Source: Oscillospiraceae bacterium (GTDB lineage Bacteria > Bacillota > Clostridia > Oscillospirales > Ruminococcaceae). Taken from it: a stretch of 46,272 bases of DNA. The notes under the pieces are model-generated. The model was given only the letters and a program-made list of their open reading frames with translations, made no database searches and was not told the origin of the DNA. The position numbers and the translations under genes are program-made. Each line of letters starts with the position of its first letter. Position 1 is the stretch's first letter. The stretch spans positions 1 through 46,272 of the forward strand of contig JAFYPL010000027.1 of assembly GCA_017547525.1 (NCBI GenBank), in the 5' to 3' direction. Shown here piece after piece: positions 598 through 25,514 of the stretch.

Positions 598-2235
598 TTA
601 TTCTGCATATCGCAGATAGTACAGATTATCACAGATTTTTTTGAACAATGGTGTGGTTGAGTAACTGCTTTCTCCCCCATCATACAGCATTACACATATG
701 GTATATTCCGGGCTGTTTCCGGGATAAAAACCACAAAACCATGACACGAATATCTCTTCACCATTTTCATCCGTTTTCCCGGTCTGGGCAGTTCCTGTTT
801 TTCCAGCCGCCGTTAAATATTCCGGATTGGCTCTACCTCCATTACCTTTTTCCACTACCTTCTTCAGCATATTTTTTACTGTTTCTGCTGTATGTTGCGA
901 TATAACCCTTTTACTCTGATAATTATACAGATTTTCCGTTTTCTCCCCTGTTTCTTTTAAAAACATTCCTTCTGCAATCTGCGGATAAACATATATTCCG
1001 TCATTGGCGAATATATTCATATATGCTGCCACGTGCACAGGACTTACAAGAAAATCTCCCTGACCGAAACTGACTGCAGACTGTACCCCTGTATTTTTAA
1101 GTTTTTCGGCCCGCGGAAAATATCCGCTTTTGGTAGTGTAATTTTGACACAGAGTAATCGATCTGCCAATATTTACCTGGTTTGTATACTGTTTTTGAAT
1201 GTATCCCTTGTTTTCAATCATTGTATCTATAAAATAGCAGTTGCACGAAACTATCAACGCCTGTTCCATATCCACCATACCATGAGCATTATTATTTGCA
1301 CAATGGTAGATATGCCCATTTACATCTGTATATCCTTTACATTCATACAGTTTTTCTTTATCTATACCGTTTTCCAGAAAAGCCGCTGCCCATAGCGGTT
1401 TTATAACGCTACCGGGTTCATATGCCTGTAACGCTTTGTTCAGTAAAGGAGAATCAGGTTCATCCAGACTGGCAGCAATATTATTGGCATCATAGCACGG
1501 CATGGAAACCATAGCCTTTATTTTACCTGTTGCTGTTTCCATAATAACTATACTACCGTTTGATATATATTCCCTTGCTACGCTTTCACACATTCTTTGT
1601 ATAGAATTGTCTACTGTAAGAGACAATACCTGTGCTTCATCAGAAATACTACTGTGAACATCCCCATATATATCCCCATTTCCGTTTACATTGAATGACA
1701 ATGTGATTTTTTCGCCCTTATCTTTCAATTTCACATCAAATGCTTTTTCTATGCCTGTTAAACCGTTGCTGTCAGAATCAGTATAGCCTATGAGATGCTG
1801 TGCTATGTTTGATGAAGAATATCTTTTGGTCGTTGTATATATAGTTTCAGAATCTATGGGATTTGCCAGGTTGACAACCATCCTTGTTTCATTTTGTATT
1901 CTGTTATAAAATTTCTCCCTGTCCTGTGGGCGTATGTTTTCGTAAATATCCTGAAGATTAGTTTGCGAAGTAATCAATACTTTTATCTCATCTTCTGTAC
2001 CTGTGATTTTTTTCAGGTTACAATCGGTTATATCCGCTCTGCCTGTAGATATATTCACGTGTTTTACTGTCTGCCGTATGGCTTTTTCATAATAATCATT
2101 ACATATTATGAAAACCATTCTTAACTGCAGAATAAACGCAAAAACCACAAATAGATATACTAGTTTCAACAGTTTCTTCTCCGTCAAAAAAACACCCCCA
2201 TAACTATTATCGTCACAAGGGTGATGTGTATTCAT
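598..2235 (-). CDS. penicillin-binding transpeptidase, SpoVD/FtsI (class B PBP) type
   Basis: A class B penicillin-binding protein that cross-links peptidoglycan. A membrane anchor lies at about residues 22-45, with the rest outside the cell. The transpeptidase motifs are all present: S276-V-I-K279 in a PGSVIKP context, S330-C-N332, and K479-T-G in AAGKTGTAQTG. At 545 residues it is shorter than typical FtsI or SpoVD proteins (about 600-750); the N-terminal dimerisation region is compact and there is no C-terminal PASTA domain. Its ATG overlaps the last codon of the upstream sigma factor gene (ATGA, 2232-2235), so the two are probably translated together. Coupling to a SigK-type factor suggests a role in spore cortex synthesis, like SpoVD, but this is inferred from context; a vegetative role is possible. 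Confidence 0.9.
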   Translation of the reverse strand: MNTHHPCDDNSYGGVFLTEKKLLKLVYLFVVFAFILQLRMVFIICNDYYEKAIRQTVKHVNISTGRADITDCNLKKITGTEDEIKVLITSQTNLQDIYENIRPQDREKFYNRIQNETRMVVNLANPIDSETIYTTTKRYSSSNIAQHLIGYTDSDSNGLTGIEKAFDVKLKDKGEKITLSFNVNGNGDIYGDVHSSISDEAQVLSLTVDNSIQRMCESVAREYISNGSIVIMETATGKIKAMVSMPCYDANNIAASLDEPDSPLLNKALQAYEPGSVIKPLWAAAFLENGIDKEKLYECKGYTDVNGHIYHCANNNAHGMVDMEQALIVSCNCYFIDTMIENKGYIQKQYTNQVNIGRSITLCQNYTTKSGYFPRAEKLKNTGVQSAVSFGQGDFLVSPVHVAAYMNIFANDGIYVYPQIAEGMFLKETGEKTENLYNYQSKRVISQHTAETVKNMLKKVVEKGNGGRANPEYLTAAGKTGTAQTGKTDENGEEIFVSWFCGFYPGNSPEYTICVMLYDGGESSYSTTPLFKKICDNLYYLRYAE

Positions 2236-16173: not shown

Positions 16174-19100
16174 ATGAAAACTTTCAGAAAAGTTGTATCC
16201 ATGATACTGACTTTGACTATGGTATTTTCAATAATTCCGGATATGAGTGTTTTTGCTACACAACAGGACATGACACCACCTGTTGTCAGCAACGTTGTTT
16301 TCTCAATCAATGGTCATTCAATCCTTGTGGATTTTGAAGCATACGATACTGATGGCAGTGATCTGGATGCAAACCTGACAAAAATTATTATTCCTCAGTC
16401 CTCTACTCCAAACCACATTGTTTGGGCTTCTTCCCTGATTTCAAACGGTGGTAACAGCTATACCGCTGAATTTATTCTGGAAAATCACGTGGAAGGACTT
16501 GTGGAAGTAATGCAACTGAGTATCGCCGATGAATACGGTAATGCATTTGAAATATCCAATCCTAGCGGCATACCTTTATTTTCAGGCAATATCCAGTCTG
16601 TTGTAGCAAACTACATTGTCATCAAAAATATGACTTTCGATGGTCAGTCCAATGCTATATACACACTGGATGACAATAGTGTTATTCCATATAACATCAA
16701 TGTTACAGCCGATGTGGACACAAATATAAACCTGCCTAACGGTGAATTCTTTGACGTTTCTTTCATCAGCCATGAAAGCTATGACAGTACATCCCATTCC
16801 AGCACCGGTATGATTTACGATGCAGCTACAAAAACCATAAGTGGTACACTTGGCTTATCTTTCTTTTTCTTTGACAAGCCATACACTGTTGAATATGTAA
16901 AACATAATGGTAACCCTGTGGAATATTCTGGCACTTCATCATTTATGATTGATAAACAGCATACAGACCATGTAGCACCGAATGTCTATGATGTTTATTT
17001 TACTGTTGATGGCATAAAAACCGATCCTGGTTTTATTGTTGAGCCTAACCAGTCAACAGGTTCATATCCTACAGTAAAACTGCACTATAAAACAACAGAA
17101 CATCCCGAGACAAACACCATCGCATTTTCCACTGCTCTGGAAAATGTAAGTGAAAACAAAATCTGGCTTGAACAAATCAATTATGTAAATGGCGAATATG
17201 TACTTGATATCCCTGTAGCTGATATGTACGCTACGGAATGGTACATCTATGATATGCTTGTTGTGGACAAATACTGGAACCATAACGAACAGAATCATGA
17301 AGATTTTTATTTCTACATCAAAGATACAGATGGTAATATCAGTCTGCCTTACAACGAATATACTTTCGTATTCAACTATAACGGCAACTATGATGATATG
17401 GTAAGAATCACCATAAACAGCACACGTGTTACTACACTGGCAGAAATTATGGAATCCTCTGGTGTGGATGTGAAAGCAACCGAGTATCCTGGCTTCACAT
17501 TTGAAGGCTGGTGGACAGGTATGGAAGACAAAACATATGGTCTGAACGATACTATCTTCCTGCCTGAATACAACAGAGATATTTACTTTTCACCTAAATA
17601 TGATAAAGCTCCTATGGAAATCCACCTGTCTTACGTAAATTCTCAGGGAGAAATGGATACAGTACATACCATTATCCCTATGAACTATGGTGATACAGTG
17701 GCTGACTTACTGACAGAAGTTGCATCACTTCAGATTGATCACTGTGCTGATCTCGAATTCCAGCAGATATTTGTAGCTGATCAGAACCTGAGCCTTTCCG
17801 AAAAAATTGAACCCGGATTCTTCTATGTAGGCTTTGACTCCGAATACAGATATAATTACGTGTTCCTGGATTTCAGCTATATCAACACAATTGGCGATGA
17901 AATTTATGATCACAGACAGATTAAACTGCCGGCTACATCTACATATCAGGATGTTATTGACTGGTTTAATGCAAATGTATCTGTAAATCATAACCCTGAT
18001 ATGGGATTTATAGAATGGACACCATCACTCAACCCTGCTGATCCTATAGAAAATTTCTCATTCATGAACATGCAGCCTGTATATGACAAAGTACATGTAA
18101 CTACAGGTATTTTCTATTACAATCAGAACGGTAATCTGTGCGAACACATTGAGTCTCATATAGTACCACATGGCACAACTGTCCAGGACATTGTGGACAC
18201 TATCGGTTATTCATTGCCTTCTATCAATGAACACGATACAAGCCTTAATTTCACTGGATGGGTAACAGTAAATGACAGTCTCGAATCTATATCTGGTACT
18301 GACACACTCAGTAATGATAACCGCGCAGTAATACTCATGGCCGAATATCAGCAATACCCTGTGACATATTGCTATACATACAAAACTGCTCAGGGTAATA
18401 TAAAAACAATAACACATTCTGATACCGTTCCTGCTGGTACTGATCTGACAGACTTTTTCAATAACCTGACAATGCCTTCCGATGCTGTAAACGAAAGATT
18501 TATGGCATGGGCAGTGAACAGTCGGATAGCGCCAGAAGTTTCAACACTGGCAAATTATCTGGATGCTTATATGCATTTTGACAATAGCATCCCAACAATT
18601 ATAGAAGTGGAACGTGTGGATGAAAATCATGAGGTATCTCGCCTGCTTATCCCTTATTATGCAACAGCAGCGGACTACAATAACCCTGACTTCATCGGTA
18701 ATCTGATAACTTTGCTCAAGAATTATCTTAAATCAAATCCTGTTAATGATTATTCAGGATTTGTAGTAGACGACTATATGTGTGAAGGTGTTATATATGA
18801 TGATTCAAACATGGGCACTCCGTTCTATCAGACTACAGTGTTTATGATGATGCCGGTTTATGGTGCTCCTATACGGACACCAACTCCTACACCTATCCCA
18901 AGCACAACACCATCCCCTTCTCCAGCACCAGTAGCTACACCGGCGCCAACAGTTACACCTGCTCCTACTGTTACACCAATAGCTACTCCTACTCCTACAA
19001 CAACACCTTTTGTTAAACTTGAAAACACTCTGATAAGCGCTGCCGTTACATCCGTACAGCAGGCACAGTCCGGCACAAGTGTAACAGTCAGCATGATAAA

Positions 19101-19677
19101 TACTGACGGCAGTGTGGCCACAGTAGTACCAGTGGATCTGCTGGAAGCTGTAAGAGGCCAAAATGTTGATGTTGTTCTGGACATGGGTGGTTATACATGG
19201 ACAATAAATGGTATGGATATCGTGGCACCTTCCCTTTCAGAAATCAATCTGGAAGTTGTTATGGACACAACAGCCATTCCAAACAAAACTATCAGCGCCC
19301 TTGCCGGCAACAATCCTACAAGACAGCTGTCTCTGACACACAATGGTGATTTCGGTTTCAAAGCAAGACTTACCGTAAATGTGGGTAGTCAGTACGCAGG
19401 CACAAATGGTAATCTGTATTACCACGACAGCAATAACAAACTTGTGTTCATATCCAATGGTATCGTTCAGGCGGACGGCTCTGTTTCTTTGGATTTCACA
19501 CATGCTTCAGACTACGTGATTATCATGAAAACAACAGAAGCAGAAAACACAGAAACTGAAACAGTACCAGATACACAACCTGAAGAAGCAGAATCATCTT
19601 ACTTACCTGTTATTCCTGTTATCATCGCTATAGCAGTTGTTGCAGTGGTTTTAGTATTATTTAAAAAGAAAAAATAA
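16174..19677 (+). CDS. large secreted surface protein with InlB-type repeats
   Basis: A 1167-residue protein with a signal peptide (cleavage probably after A28, SVFA), beta-rich Ig-like N-terminal regions, several units resembling the Listeria-Bacteroides repeat of internalin B (about 395-475 with GFTFEGWWTG and NRDIYFSPKYD, and looser copies to about 800 with FTGWVTV and RFMAWAV), a threonine/proline-rich linker (about 899-947, repeated TPTP and PAPT), a C-terminal globular domain and a final membrane segment with a KKKK tail (about 1142-1167). There is no LPXTG signal, so it is probably membrane-anchored by its tail. Function is likely adhesion or wall interaction. It has a GGAGGG site but no clear promoter after the upstream terminator. 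It lies between two halves of the FkbH-type gene block. Confidence 0.88.
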   Translation: MKTFRKVVSMILTLTMVFSIIPDMSVFATQQDMTPPVVSNVVFSINGHSILVDFEAYDTDGSDLDANLTKIIIPQSSTPNHIVWASSLISNGGNSYTAEFILENHVEGLVEVMQLSIADEYGNAFEISNPSGIPLFSGNIQSVVANYIVIKNMTFDGQSNAIYTLDDNSVIPYNINVTADVDTNINLPNGEFFDVSFISHESYDSTSHSSTGMIYDAATKTISGTLGLSFFFFDKPYTVEYVKHNGNPVEYSGTSSFMIDKQHTDHVAPNVYDVYFTVDGIKTDPGFIVEPNQSTGSYPTVKLHYKTTEHPETNTIAFSTALENVSENKIWLEQINYVNGEYVLDIPVADMYATEWYIYDMLVVDKYWNHNEQNHEDFYFYIKDTDGNISLPYNEYTFVFNYNGNYDDMVRITINSTRVTTLAEIMESSGVDVKATEYPGFTFEGWWTGMEDKTYGLNDTIFLPEYNRDIYFSPKYDKAPMEIHLSYVNSQGEMDTVHTIIPMNYGDTVADLLTEVASLQIDHCADLEFQQIFVADQNLSLSEKIEPGFFYVGFDSEYRYNYVFLDFSYINTIGDEIYDHRQIKLPATSTYQDVIDWFNANVSVNHNPDMGFIEWTPSLNPADPIENFSFMNMQPVYDKVHVTTGIFYYNQNGNLCEHIESHIVPHGTTVQDIVDTIGYSLPSINEHDTSLNFTGWVTVNDSLESISGTDTLSNDNRAVILMAEYQQYPVTYCYTYKTAQGNIKTITHSDTVPAGTDLTDFFNNLTMPSDAVNERFMAWAVNSRIAPEVSTLANYLDAYMHFDNSIPTIIEVERVDENHEVSRLLIPYYATAADYNNPDFIGNLITLLKNYLKSNPVNDYSGFVVDDYMCEGVIYDDSNMGTPFYQTTVFMMMPVYGAPIRTPTPTPIPSTTPSPSPAPVATPAPTVTPAPTVTPIATPTPTTTPFVKLENTLISAAVTSVQQAQSGTSVTVSMINTDGSVATVVPVDLLEAVRGQNVDVVLDMGGYTWTINGMDIVAPSLSEINLEVVMDTTAIPNKTISALAGNNPTRQLSLTHNGDFGFKARLTVNVGSQYAGTNGNLYYHDSNNKLVFISNGIVQADGSVSLDFTHASDYVIIMKTTEAENTETETVPDTQPEEAESSYLPVIPVIIAIAVVAVVLVLFKKKK

Positions 19678-22477: not shown

Positions 22478-22508
22478 CAGGGCACATTTCCAAAAGAGAT
22501 GTTCCCTG
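22478..22508 (+). terminator. intrinsic terminator after the acyltransferase gene
   Basis: CAGGG-ACAT pairs with ATGT-CCCTG (one mismatch in each arm), followed by TTTATTTTA. Confidence 0.75.
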
Positions 22509-22539
22509 TTTATTTTACTAACATTGAAAAGAGAAAAAT

Positions 22540-23034
22540 ATGACTTCTGAACAATATAAAAAAATAAGTGAACCTTTCCGCAGTGAATCCATGACCAAAC
22601 TGCTGAAACTTACTAATAAAGGTCTTACTATATTTGGGTTTGCCGCCTATCCTGTTTTACTTATCAGTCTTTTTATCTTAGCACCAGAAAAGTTGCTTAC
22701 CGCCATAGTTGTGCCAGGATCTGGTTTTGTCTTACTGACATTGGTAAGAAGAAAAATAAACAGACCCAGACCGTATGTAGCCCTTGATATAGACCCTATC
22801 ATACATAAGGAGAAAAAAGGCAACAGTATGCCATCAAGACATGTATTCAGCATGGCTATGATAGCAGCTATATGGTGGCTTTTGTCCCCTGCTGTCTGCT
22901 GTATACTGATGATTTTCAGTGTTATACTGGCAATTATCCGTGTGGTGGCAGGCATACATTACCCATCTGACGTTGTGGTTGGTGCCTTATGTGCAATAAT
23001 ATGGGCTATTAGTGGCTGTCGGATTTTATTATAA
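22540..23034 (+). CDS. PAP2 family membrane phosphatase
   Basis: A 164-residue type 2 phosphatidic acid phosphatase-like protein with about four membrane helices. The three motifs are complete: KINRPRP (about 72-78), PSRH with H101, and R134-x5-H140-x3-D144 (RVVAGIHYPSDV). Possible substrates are undecaprenyl diphosphate or phosphatidic acid. Its ribosome site is AAAGAGAAA. The gene before it ends in a terminator, so it is probably its own unit. Confidence 0.88.
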   Translation: MTSEQYKKISEPFRSESMTKLLKLTNKGLTIFGFAAYPVLLISLFILAPEKLLTAIVVPGSGFVLLTLVRRKINRPRPYVALDIDPIIHKEKKGNSMPSRHVFSMAMIAAIWWLLSPAVCCILMIFSVILAIIRVVAGIHYPSDVVVGALCAIIWAISGCRILL

Positions 23035-23044
23035 ACAATAAAAC

Positions 23045-23070
23045 AAACCAGATGTATAAGCATCTGGTTT
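23045..23070 (+). terminator. intrinsic terminator after the PAP2 gene
   Basis: AAACCAGATG and CATCTGGTTT form a 10-base-pair stem with a six-base loop, followed by TATTAT. Confidence 0.85.
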
Positions 23071-23081
23071 TATTATCAAAT

Positions 23082-23667
23082 AAACAAGAGCCACCGATAT
23101 TTCAGTGGCTCTTTATTATTATCACTGTTTAGTGGGCCTTTGTAATGTTCTCTCTTTGCTGTATGTGGTACGGTTTCGATGTTAATATATAACTTTCTTT
23201 ACAATTATATATTGCATATTTTTCTGTTTCACATATTTTCAAGCAATCTGTATGGTCGCGCCATTCTAGGTAATACAGTAAAGATTATCTATCTTTTTAT
23301 TTTCTAACTATACAGACCTGTCATTAAGATTTTCTATCCTTATTTTTATCTTGATATAGTTATTTCACTACTGTAGATATTTTTATGATAATTTGAATAT
23401 TTACTGTGACCGCTTATATTCTTCAATATGCTTATGTATCCTACATTTTCAGCATTGAACATCTGCAGAAAATCAATATTAATATCTGTAATCTTTTCTG
23501 ATATAGTCCTATATCACCATGATATTTTTATATCAGACAGACATTCATATCTAGGTCAATTCCTATAACCTTCTTTACGATTATTCATTGGCTTTTCTTT
23601 TTATTTTCTGCTCTTGCCAGGAACAGTATCGTTACTAATGTGCCATCGGCCCCACATCCTTTTCTTT
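23082..23667 (-). ncRNA. candidate large structured non-coding RNA, family unassigned
   Basis: The minus strand here has a consensus promoter (23674-23702) and a terminator (23086-23113) framing about 585 nt. No reading frame longer than about 55 codons occurs in any frame, and none has a good ribosome site. Near the 5' end GTGGGGCC (23655-23648) is complementary to GGCCCAC (23138-23132) just before the terminator, which would close the RNA into one large fold. Between them are many local stems: 23608-23626 (six pairs), 23498-23536 (two adjacent hairpins or one longer), 23423-23458 with an inner hairpin 23434-23446, 23395-23421, 23306-23361, 23280-23296 and 23252-23264 (ATGG/CCAT, loop TCGCG). 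Size and ornate fold are similar to ROOL, OLE or GOLLD RNAs, but I cannot assign it to any of them. It lies between an ABC-F gene and PAP2. Confidence 0.62.
23086..23113 (-). terminator. terminator of the candidate non-coding RNA
   Basis: AAGAGCCACTG pairs with CGGTGGCTCTT (one G-T wobble) around a six-base loop, followed on the minus strand by GTTTATTTG. The plus-strand tail is also T-rich, so it may work in both directions. Confidence 0.8.
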
Positions 23668-23673
23668 AGTTTC

Positions 23674-23702
23674 ATAGTAGCACAGTTTATTCAGTATGTC
23701 AA
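23674..23702 (-). promoter_or_regulatory. consensus promoter of the candidate non-coding RNA
   Basis: On the minus strand TTGACA (23702-23697), exactly 17 bases, then TACTAT (23679-23674). The upstream edge overlaps a perfect 10-base palindrome AACGATCGTT (23701-23710). This is among the strongest promoters in the window, yet no gene follows it. Confidence 0.8.
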
Positions 23703-23710
23703 CGATCGTT

Positions 23711-23888
23711 ATTTATTTAATTAAGTTTTCGACCTGTTTTATAAGTACTTTTTAATTTTAAAATTAGCCATTCGATCTTTTTCTTTATTTTATTAAAAAC
23801 AAATTCTATTTTACCATTTATATTTTTAAAGCGTTATCTTCTTGTTTTATTATTATGTTTTTATTTTTATCTTTACATCATAAAAAAT
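23711..23888. other. AT-rich spacer, nothing recognised
   Basis: Very AT-rich sequence between the ncRNA promoter and the ABC-F terminator. I see no gene, repeat or clear hairpin in it. Confidence 0.6.
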
Positions 23889-23889
23889 A

Positions 23890-23914
23890 AAAACTGCCGG
23901 AAACCGGCAGTTTT
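23890..23914 (-). terminator. intrinsic terminator after the ABC-F gene
   Basis: AAAACTGCCGG and CCGGCAGTTTT form an 11-base-pair stem with a three-base loop, with T-rich sequence following on the minus strand. Confidence 0.92.
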
Positions 23915-23918
23915 CAGA

Positions 23919-25514
23919 TTATTTTTTATGTTTATATTCGATATATTCATCGTATGTCATAGGTTTATCCACAATAGTACCATCTGGCAGTACTTCAATA
24001 ACGCGGTTTGCGATTGTCTGGATAAACTGATGGTCATGGGATGCGAAAAGAACAGTTCCTTTGAAATCCACGATACCATTGTTAACAGCTGTAATTGATT
24101 CAAGGTCAAGATGGTTAGTAGGCTGGTCAAGCATAATAACGTTTGCTTCTTTCATCATCATACGGCTGAGCATACATCTTACTTTTTCACCACCAGAAAG
24201 AACGTTTACCTTTTTGAAAACATCATCACCGCTGAACAGCATACGACCGAGGAATCCTCGCAGATAGCTGTCTGTCTGGTCTTTGGAATACTGACGCAAC
24301 CAGTCAATAATGCTGTCGTTGTTGTCTTTAAAGAATTCTGTATTATCTTTTGGGAAGTAGCTGCGTGAAGTGGAAACACCCCATTTGATACTACCTTCAT
24401 CTGGTTCCATTTCACCATTCAGGATTTTAAACAGAGCTGTCTGGCCTGCTTCGTTATCACCGATAAGAGCAATTTTATCAAGACGGTTGATAAAGAAAGA
24501 TACTTTATCCAATACTTTGATACCGTCAATAGTCTTGGATACTTCTTTTACTTCCAATACATCTTTACCTACTTCTCTGTCCTGTACAAAACCTACAAAT
24601 GGATATTTACGGGAAGATGCAGGCATTTCTTCCAGCTGGATATTATCCAGAATTTTCTTTCTGGATGTAGCCTGTTTGGATTTTGATTTATTGGCAGAGA
24701 ATCTGCGGATAAATTCTTCCAGCTGTTTGATTTTTTCTTCTTTTTTCTTGTTCTGGTTTTTGATAAGCTGGTTCATCAGCTGGCTGGATTCATACCAGAA
24801 ATCGTAGTTACCAGCATACATTTTTACTTTGTTGTAGTCAATATCTACTGTATGTGTGCAAACTGCATTCAGGAAGTGACGGTCATGGGAAACAACCAGT
24901 ACTGTGCCCGGGAAATCAATAATGAATTCTTCCAGCCATGTAATAGCATCGATGTCCAGGTCGTTGGTAGGTTCGTCCAGCAGAATGATACTTGGTTTAC
25001 CGAACAGTGCTTTTGCCAGCAGAACTTTAACTTTGTCGCGGCCTTTCAGGTTTTTCATCTGCATGTAGTGATATTCTTTATCTACACCCAGACCGTTCAG
25101 CAGCTGCAGTACTTCTGTTTCTGCTTCCCATCCATCCAGTTCAGCAAATTCGCCTTCCAGTTCAGCAGCTCTTTCGCCGTCTTCTTCAGAAAAATCAGGT
25201 TTTGCATACAGCTCATCCTTTTCTTTCATAATTTCATACAAGCGAGGGTTGCCCATAATAACAGTTTCCATTACAAAAAATTCATCATATTTGAAATGGT
25301 CCTGTTCCAGTACAGACATACGGGAATTTTTATCCATGAAAATTTCGCCTTTGGAAGGTTCGCGTACGCCGGATATAAATTTAAGCAGTGTTGATTTACC
25401 AGCACCATTAGCACCGATAATACCATAACAGTTGCCATCTTTAAAATCAAGGTTTACATCTTTGAATAAGGTCTGACCATCAAATTCATGTGTCAGGTCT
25501 TTAACTGTAAGCAT
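23919..25514 (-). CDS. ABC-F family ATP-binding protein (YbiT/YkpA-like)
   Basis: A 531-residue cytoplasmic protein with two ABC domains and no membrane part, of the ABC-F family that acts on ribosomes in translation or antibiotic protection. First domain: Walker A GANGAGKST (about 34-42), an unusual signature LKGRDKVKV, Walker B IILLDEPTNDLD. An alpha-helical linker rich in lysine (about 255-290) is followed by the second domain: degenerate Walker A GDNEAGQTALF in which the usual K is Q, signature LSGGEKVRC, and MLDQPTNHLD in which the usual E of DEP is Q. The second site may thus bind but hardly hydrolyse ATP. The branch resembles YkpA/YbiT proteins. Good AAAGGAGAA site. The convergent or following non-coding RNA lies downstream. 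Confidence 0.92.
   Translation of the reverse strand: MLTVKDLTHEFDGQTLFKDVNLDFKDGNCYGIIGANGAGKSTLLKFISGVREPSKGEIFMDKNSRMSVLEQDHFKYDEFFVMETVIMGNPRLYEIMKEKDELYAKPDFSEEDGERAAELEGEFAELDGWEAETEVLQLLNGLGVDKEYHYMQMKNLKGRDKVKVLLAKALFGKPSIILLDEPTNDLDIDAITWLEEFIIDFPGTVLVVSHDRHFLNAVCTHTVDIDYNKVKMYAGNYDFWYESSQLMNQLIKNQNKKKEEKIKQLEEFIRRFSANKSKSKQATSRKKILDNIQLEEMPASSRKYPFVGFVQDREVGKDVLEVKEVSKTIDGIKVLDKVSFFINRLDKIALIGDNEAGQTALFKILNGEMEPDEGSIKWGVSTSRSYFPKDNTEFFKDNNDSIIDWLRQYSKDQTDSYLRGFLGRMLFSGDDVFKKVNVLSGGEKVRCMLSRMMMKEANVIMLDQPTNHLDLESITAVNNGIVDFKGTVLFASHDHQFIQTIANRVIEVLPDGTIVDKPMTYDEYIEYKHKK

Follow-up and report, generated by a model that had tools for sequence, protein, structure and literature searches.

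What is encoded by some 585 nucleotides that lie between two genes, are framed by promoter and terminator motifs and carry no obvious reading frame? We know of few bacterial RNAs this large and intricate that lack a known job. The stretch lies in an uncultured Oscillospiraceae genome (G000; 1.5 Mb, 43 contigs), and the window analysed here is the whole of its contig C22, 46,272 nucleotides long. A sequence-only reading had proposed that the stretch encodes a large, independently transcribed structured RNA. Here we present a comparative analysis of this RNA, termed RNA A. We put at roughly 60 % the probability of the overall reading, namely that RNA A represents a putative new family of large, independently transcribed non-coding RNA, present in part of one Oscillospiraceae genus, whose octaloop hairpins serve for docking.

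The ends of RNA A are set by the signals listed in Table 1. The proposed sigma-A promoter is present on the minus strand, matches 10 of 12 consensus positions and is among the two best-scoring sites of the interval 22500-24200. Since this interval holds 12 promoter-like sites against 8.8 expected in shuffles, the motif is weak by itself. It becomes convincing because TTGACA begins at a constant distance, 35 or 36 bases, 5′ of AAGAAAAGGA in all eight homologues. The intrinsic terminator is likewise present, with a stem that is compensated between relatives and a T run that is interrupted (GTTTATTTG). A further terminator-like stem lies just past it (23045-23070, minus strand) and is possibly shared by the convergent PAP2 gene.

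Table 1. Features of RNA A and its surroundings in the window, and loci of RNA B in sister species
Feature	Position	Strand	Basis or remark
Structured RNA A, about 585 nt	23080..23667	minus	predicted start from promoter, predicted end from terminator
Promoter TTGACA-17-TACTAT, extended -10 TG	23674..23702	minus	motif and fixed spacing in 8/8 homologues
Intrinsic terminator stem, 12 pairs	23086..23113	minus	compensatory changes between relatives
P0, 5′ hairpin AUGUG/CACAU around invariant GGGGCCGAUG	23638..23657	minus	by hand
P1 5′ strand GUGGG, end-closing	23651..23655	minus	invariant 7/7
P1 3′ strand CCCAC	23132..23136	minus	minimum-energy fold and relatives
P2 5′ strand CAGAAAAU	23603..23610	minus	8/8 pairs in 6 sequences, 6/7 in G008
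P2 3′ strand AUUUUCUG	23466..23473	minus	relatives and minimum-energy fold
P3 5′ strand GAUGUUC (G008: UUUGUCC)	23457..23463	minus	compensated
P3 3′ strand GAACAUU (G008: GGACAAA)	23144..23150	minus	relatives and minimum-energy fold
P5 5′ strand AAGCGGUC	23408..23415	minus	helix enumeration, covariation test, minimum-energy fold
P5 3′ strand GAUUGCUU	23241..23248	minus	helix enumeration, covariation test, minimum-energy fold
P5b 5′ strand ACAGUA	23402..23407	minus	helix enumeration, covariation test, minimum-energy fold
P5b 3′ strand UACUGU	23275..23280	minus	helix enumeration, covariation test, minimum-energy fold
P7 hairpin AUGG-CGCGA-CCAU	23252..23264	minus	by eye, RNAalifold, minimum-energy fold
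H1 hairpin, octaloop GUAAAGAA, strongly covarying stem	23565..23584	minus	helix enumeration
H3 hairpin, octaloop GUAAAGAA, 11-pair stem	23184..23213	minus	enumeration and minimum-energy fold
ABC-F ATPase gene	23919..25514	minus	constant upstream neighbour of RNA A
PAP2 phosphatase gene	22540-23034	plus	between RNA A and gene for 325-aa protein; convergent
T-box leader	338-540	minus	heads towards left contig end
Transpeptidase gene	598-2235		same order and orientation as in G002; 57 bases from window T-box
RNA B loci	G002:C53:1282-2032 (L244, L220); G006:C144; G014:C22; G011:C33; G004:C13; G007:C4; G013:C96

Homologues of RNA A occur in 8 of 16 congeners, all uncultured Oscillospiraceae (G000, G001, G005, G008, G009, G010, G012 and G015), and the expectation that related genomes would hold homologous sequence is thus borne out. 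A blastn search of 61 genomes matched RNA A in 52 of them at E ≤ 1, mostly through short chance matches. The match in G009 is nearly full length (82 %), G001, G010, G012 and G015 keep both ends around a diverged middle, and G008 and G005, first seen as paired short matches, were confirmed with the G008 sequence as query. In G005 the RNA is split over two contig ends (C34:1 and C11:1; L031, L032) with about 30 shared bases. Covariance models of the 5′ domain (R1, built from six of the eight sequences) and the 3′ domain (R2, from seven) score clearly in the same eight congeners. When 297 family genomes were searched, congeners alone matched, three with either model, at E up to 0.01 (R1) and 0.001 (R2); as 12 (R1) and 8 (R2) first-look candidates were scored per genome, distant members may be missed. 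Five weak matches were set aside: L204 (R2, in G003, E 6.4e-5), which looks like a terminator match, L185 (in G008, E 5.8e-4), L225, L231 and L205 have no octaloop hairpin on either strand.

A pattern for the 5′ end of RNA A matched 13 stretches among 84,980 species. Seven correspond to the carriers G015, G008, G010, G005, G009, G001 and G012 (six listed as Oscillospiraceae, one as Clostridia), and rectal samples of water buffalo, roe deer or goat are the source of five; the remaining six, in the unrelated organisms Rhizobium, Alsobacter, Melghirimyces, Thiomargarita, a Bdellovibrionales and a Krumholzibacteriia, were taken as chance. Distant blastn searches of phages and plasmids gave short matches only (best E 0.05 and 0.2), and a protein search with ABC-F found no viral loci. 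We also took as chance the 107 stretches of viral contigs that fit a loose RNA A pattern, because a longer pattern matched 17 of 178 collected loci, all of them RNA A, and the tight pattern AAAAGGAN{0,2}GTGGGGCCGATG had 0 matches in viral contigs. In the other eight congeners the ABC-F gene is present and the 775-1400 bases behind it hold no RNA A; absence elsewhere in these genomes is unproven since completeness is just 76-87 % for six of the assemblies and 96-97 % for the other two, G004 and G003. So restricted a range speaks against a function that is both essential and ancient.

RNA A lies directly behind the same-strand ABC-F gene in all eight homologues, and in the window this gene has a terminator-like stem of its own (23916-23888, minus strand). 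The downstream neighbour varies among the seven copies compared: PAP2 in G000 and, by eye, in G009; a 324-325-aa protein without Pfam match directly next in G001, G010, G012 and G015, where PAP2 is absent from this place; and a phospholipase-D-like protein in G008. Regulation of a neighbour in cis was judged unlikely because ABC-F is upstream and has its own terminator-like stem, and because the downstream gene varies and is convergent in the window. Of seven window proteins scanned, one had no match; the neighbours are ordinary chromosomal ones and none is agr-like. Farther off, 16174-19677 (plus strand) encodes what by eye is a surface-type protein of 1167 aa that is rich in Pro and Thr over one stretch and has a hydrophobic C-terminal segment and a KKKK tail.

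The absence of a convincing reading frame from the stretch, also claimed earlier, was confirmed by comparing frame lengths and strands: the longest frame per copy is 36-80 aa and lies on the antisense strand in 6/7, and none is conserved across copies. The antisense frame over the 3′ end covers 15-80 codons and shifts its frame from copy to copy. At the 5′ end (23638-23657, minus strand), AAAAGGA is followed by AUG-6 nt-UAR in 8/8 copies, reading Met-Ala-His-stop or Met-Tyr-Tyr-stop, possibly a minimal frame or else a side effect of the 5′ hairpin.

RNA A folds far better than its composition would predict. Its minimum free energy is -129.2 kcal/mol against a mean of -96.7 (sd 5.5) for 100 dinucleotide shuffles (z -5.93), a gap of about 32 kcal/mol, and none of the shuffles folds as well. 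The window's sequence folded alone contains all pairs of P1, P2, P3, P5, P5b, P7, H3 and the terminator; H1 and P0 are absent from this minimum-energy fold. The end closure proposed earlier stands in reduced form. Both complementary segments, GUGGGGCC and GGCCCAC, are present, and relatives keep only the five-pair core GUGGG/CCCAC (P1), in 7/7 full copies. As P1 is invariant, no covariation can show for it. The P0 stem, which reads AGUG/UACU in G008, uses the same 5′ bases as P1, which would make the two helices mutually exclusive. Inside, P3 encloses P5, which in turn encloses P5b and P7, and the middle part varies in length between copies in an A+T-rich intergenic setting. All seven pairs of P3 form in 7/7 sequences, with compensation that was spotted by eye. 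P5 reads AAACAAUC/GAUUGUUU and GAACGGUC/GAUCGUUU in relatives, and the P7 stem GUGA/UCAC and GUGG/CCAC in other copies. P7 and the terminator stem are compensated also in the model that RNAalifold itself derived for the 3′ domain.

Covariation was assessed on an anchored alignment of the eight sequences, to which G005 contributes its 5′ part only; this alignment and A3 replaced alignments A1 and A4, which misplaced G008. The helix listing used no prior model and took in every 5-pair window in which 95 % of cells or more are paired and two or more pairs are changed on both sides. Overlapping windows that qualified numbered 11 with G010 as reference and 10 with G008. The 11 amount to five helices, namely H1, P5, P5b, H3 and one (221-225/456-460 of G000) that collides with H3 and is a probable artefact. 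When columns of equal gap pattern were exchanged, in 150 permutations per reference, the mean fell to 1.03 (G010) and 0.57 (G008) windows with maxima of 5 and 4, and no permutation reached the observed number. Under the most stringent criterion, which asks for double changes in four of five pairs, the one observed window was equalled in 2/150 (G010) and 0/150 (G008) permutations. In a MAFFT alignment of the P5 region, P5, P5b, H2, P6 and P7 jointly have two-sided changes in 8 of 28 pairs, against 1-2 when slid by 1-3 columns and 3.6 in shuffles, 1/500 of which was as high; on one of five measures, further pair types, the same alignment fell below the shuffles (14 vs 15.6). P6, a helix drawn by hand that would form a pseudoknot with P5, is not established: only 61.9 % of its cells are paired, it has zero two-sided changes and, in G000 and G001, its 6-pair register runs into P5b. 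The MAFFT alignment of its region misplaces G008 and G005. The compensated helices that a covariation check on homologous intergenic regions was expected to reveal are thus found, and they rest on few independent events because the eight sequences fall into three close groups. With homologues, a fixed promoter, a fold at z -5.9 and 11 compensated windows against a mean of 1, RNA A is almost certainly a real structured RNA, and the idea of a large independent one is further upheld by the conserved terminator stem.

The most distinctive element is a set of hairpins, H1, H2 and H3, that present the identical loop GUAAAGAA on differing, covarying stems. Each RNA A has two or three of them, H2 being missing from the window's copy and from G009. 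When each of the seven full copies was dinucleotide-shuffled 2000 times, no GUAAAGAA hairpin with at least 6 pairs appeared. Across the 16 genomes there are 45 copies of the word TTGTAAAGAAAG (14 in RNA A, 7 in RNA B described below, 24 elsewhere) and 22 of its reversed control. Counting outward, with the two pairs built into the word as the minimum, it sits on stems of 7-12 pairs at 21/21 sites in RNA A and RNA B and of 2-5 pairs at the 24 others. A literature search for GUAAAGAA gave only unrelated titles among the matches listed.

Seven of the eight congeners without RNA A (G002, G004, G006, G007, G011, G013 and G014) carry a second structured RNA, RNA B, at another locus; G003 has neither by these searches. 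The lead was a weak R1 match (E 0.3). In the six copies with a 5′ end, RNA B spans 644-727 nt when counted from AGACAAG through its terminator. It has its own terminator, a three-way junction, a closing stem and one octaloop hairpin, and of 114 predicted pairs 14 show compensatory changes. The model R3, made from the core of RNA B, matches the seven congeners and 1/297 family genomes (G004). Rfam 15 has no family match to the RNA B of G002. This copy is flanked on one side by a T-box leader and on the other by a gene resembling, by eye, the transpeptidase of the window; in the window itself, T-box and transpeptidase gene adjoin directly at this place, 57 bases apart. RNA A and RNA B are unalignable: R3 does not match RNA A, the best R2 match to RNA B is weak (E 0.022) and located at the octaloop hairpin, and beyond this hairpin neither RNA matches the models of the other.

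Because RNA B was found via the shared hairpin, a selection effect must be allowed for. Shuffles of RNA B yield an octaloop hairpin with a stem of at least 6 pairs in 0-2 of 2000, and coincidence is unlikely because what the weak match led to is a large, conserved RNA carried by just those species that complement the RNA A set. A tree of the ABC-F protein groups the RNA B genomes into one clade (100/100) and places the RNA A genomes as the rest of the genus, with G003 outside; the A genomes may or may not form a clade of their own. The mutual exclusion of the two RNAs is therefore a single contrast, and RNA A may be the older, B being a clade and A the rest. It is a tentative proposal, less favoured than its negation, that sister species carry one and the same functional RNA, here as RNA A and there as RNA B, with the octaloop hairpin kept as the putative docking site of a common partner. 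Either one ancestral RNA would have turned over its locus and nearly its whole fold within the genus, or two unrelated RNAs would have been recruited for the same job with only this hairpin in common. If true, a large non-coding RNA would have been replaced wholesale while its recognition element persisted.

We propose, at a little under even odds, that RNA A is an octaloop docking scaffold. RNA A would be transcribed from its predicted promoter and would serve in trans as a scaffold on which a ribonucleoprotein or an RNA assembly is built; action in trans is suggested by its sole constant neighbour, which lies upstream and has a terminator-like stem of its own. The octaloop hairpins would be repeated docking sites for one putative partner, which could be a protein or else an RNA receptor in the same or another molecule, and the variable middle would be a spacer. 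The same hairpin in the unalignable RNA of a sister species points to the partner as the conserved thing. Two forms that share one short hairpin thus raise a testable question: what recognises the GUAAAGAA octaloop in these gut bacteria?

The strongest rival, though an unlikely one, is a regulatory RNA comparable to RNAIII, dual-function or antisense, in which a ribosome-binding site at the 5′ end would precede a tiny or short frame and loops would pair with mRNAs. Both RNAs start with a Shine-Dalgarno-like stretch and an AUG. AUG-6 nt-UAR is kept throughout RNA A even though five of the six inner bases differ in G008 and G005, and in RNA B a 33-aa frame (MKTEEHSFNEEHLEDMVKDTGFSGRFEITRSIG; L244, G002) behind a good ribosome-binding site is open in 6/6 copies with a 5′ end, with no indels. 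However, the frame of RNA A is three codons only, and that of RNA B differs between G002 and G007 at 13 non-synonymous and 3 synonymous codons, so no protein-level selection is shown for it. The conserved signal, moreover, lies mainly in stems and one octaloop.

Somewhat less probable still is a protein-titrating sponge of the CsrB kind, in which the repeated GUAAAGAA hairpins would capture a regulatory RNA-binding protein. In its favour, one loop recurs on stems unrelated to each other, and the hairpin is found again in RNA B. Against it, the copies are few, from one (RNA B) to three (RNA A), and the elaborate conserved body would be superfluous.

A highly divergent ROOL, OLE or GOLLD RNA is very improbable. 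Size, end-closing helix and motifs for independent transcription are similar, and a ROOL RNA was discovered in cow rumen (PMC12286853). Against this, Rfam 15 at gathering score has a sole match in the window, the T-box outside RNA A; on the RNA A region (E up to 10) the best sub-threshold E is 0.11-0.12 and on six relatives' loci (E up to 1) 0.045, all for unrelated families far under their cut-offs. ROOL, OLE, GOLLD, tmRNA, RNase P RNA and 6S RNA each fail to match in the window and the six relatives, ARAGORN reports neither tRNA nor tmRNA within the 46 kb of the window, and the neighbours scanned are ordinary chromosomal ones. The sequence-only reading had left open a new family or a divergent ROOL, OLE or GOLLD RNA and had suggested the Rfam models of these, tmRNA and RNase P for 23082-23667 on the minus strand; none matched, which leaves the new family standing and speaks against the divergent member. 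A degraded gene, mobile fragment or chance fold, which the A+T-rich intergenic setting and variable middle might suggest, is contradicted by the conservation pattern, shuffle and permutation tests, compensated helices and single-sequence fold and was rejected.

RNA A therefore very probably founds a new family, although an earlier nameless prediction in survey supplementary tables is possible; 3161 candidate structured RNAs from human microbiomes have been reported (PMC8040213). Among large ornate RNAs, the three best known, ROOL, GOLLD and OLE, are described as forming RNA-only assemblies (PMC12286853), and OLE as a structured RNA of about 600 nt in Gram-positive extremophilic or anaerobic bacteria (PMC9723947). 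RNA A resembles ROOL in its length of about 600 nt and its gut or rumen setting, and its promoter and terminator motifs would fit independent transcription; it differs in having no Rfam match, nearby tRNA or phage setting and in octaloop hairpins and a P3/P5/P5b/P7 body that match nothing in Rfam. ROOL is typically located in phages or prophages, often near tRNA islands, and forms an RNA-only multimeric nanocage. OLE is similar in size to RNA A and GOLLD, also large, is larger; neither has an Rfam match in RNA A. OLE binds Oap proteins, with a kink turn for OapC. RNAIII of Staphylococcus is a stand-alone RNA of about 500 nt with a 5′ ribosome-binding site, from which RNA A and RNA B differ in having no reading frame under demonstrated selection and, among the proteins scanned, no agr-like neighbour. 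CsrB and CsrC carry GGA loops, and CsrB sequesters CsrA. Like them, RNA A repeats one loop sequence on several hairpins; unlike them, it does so with the octaloop GUAAAGAA, in fewer copies and on a large conserved body.
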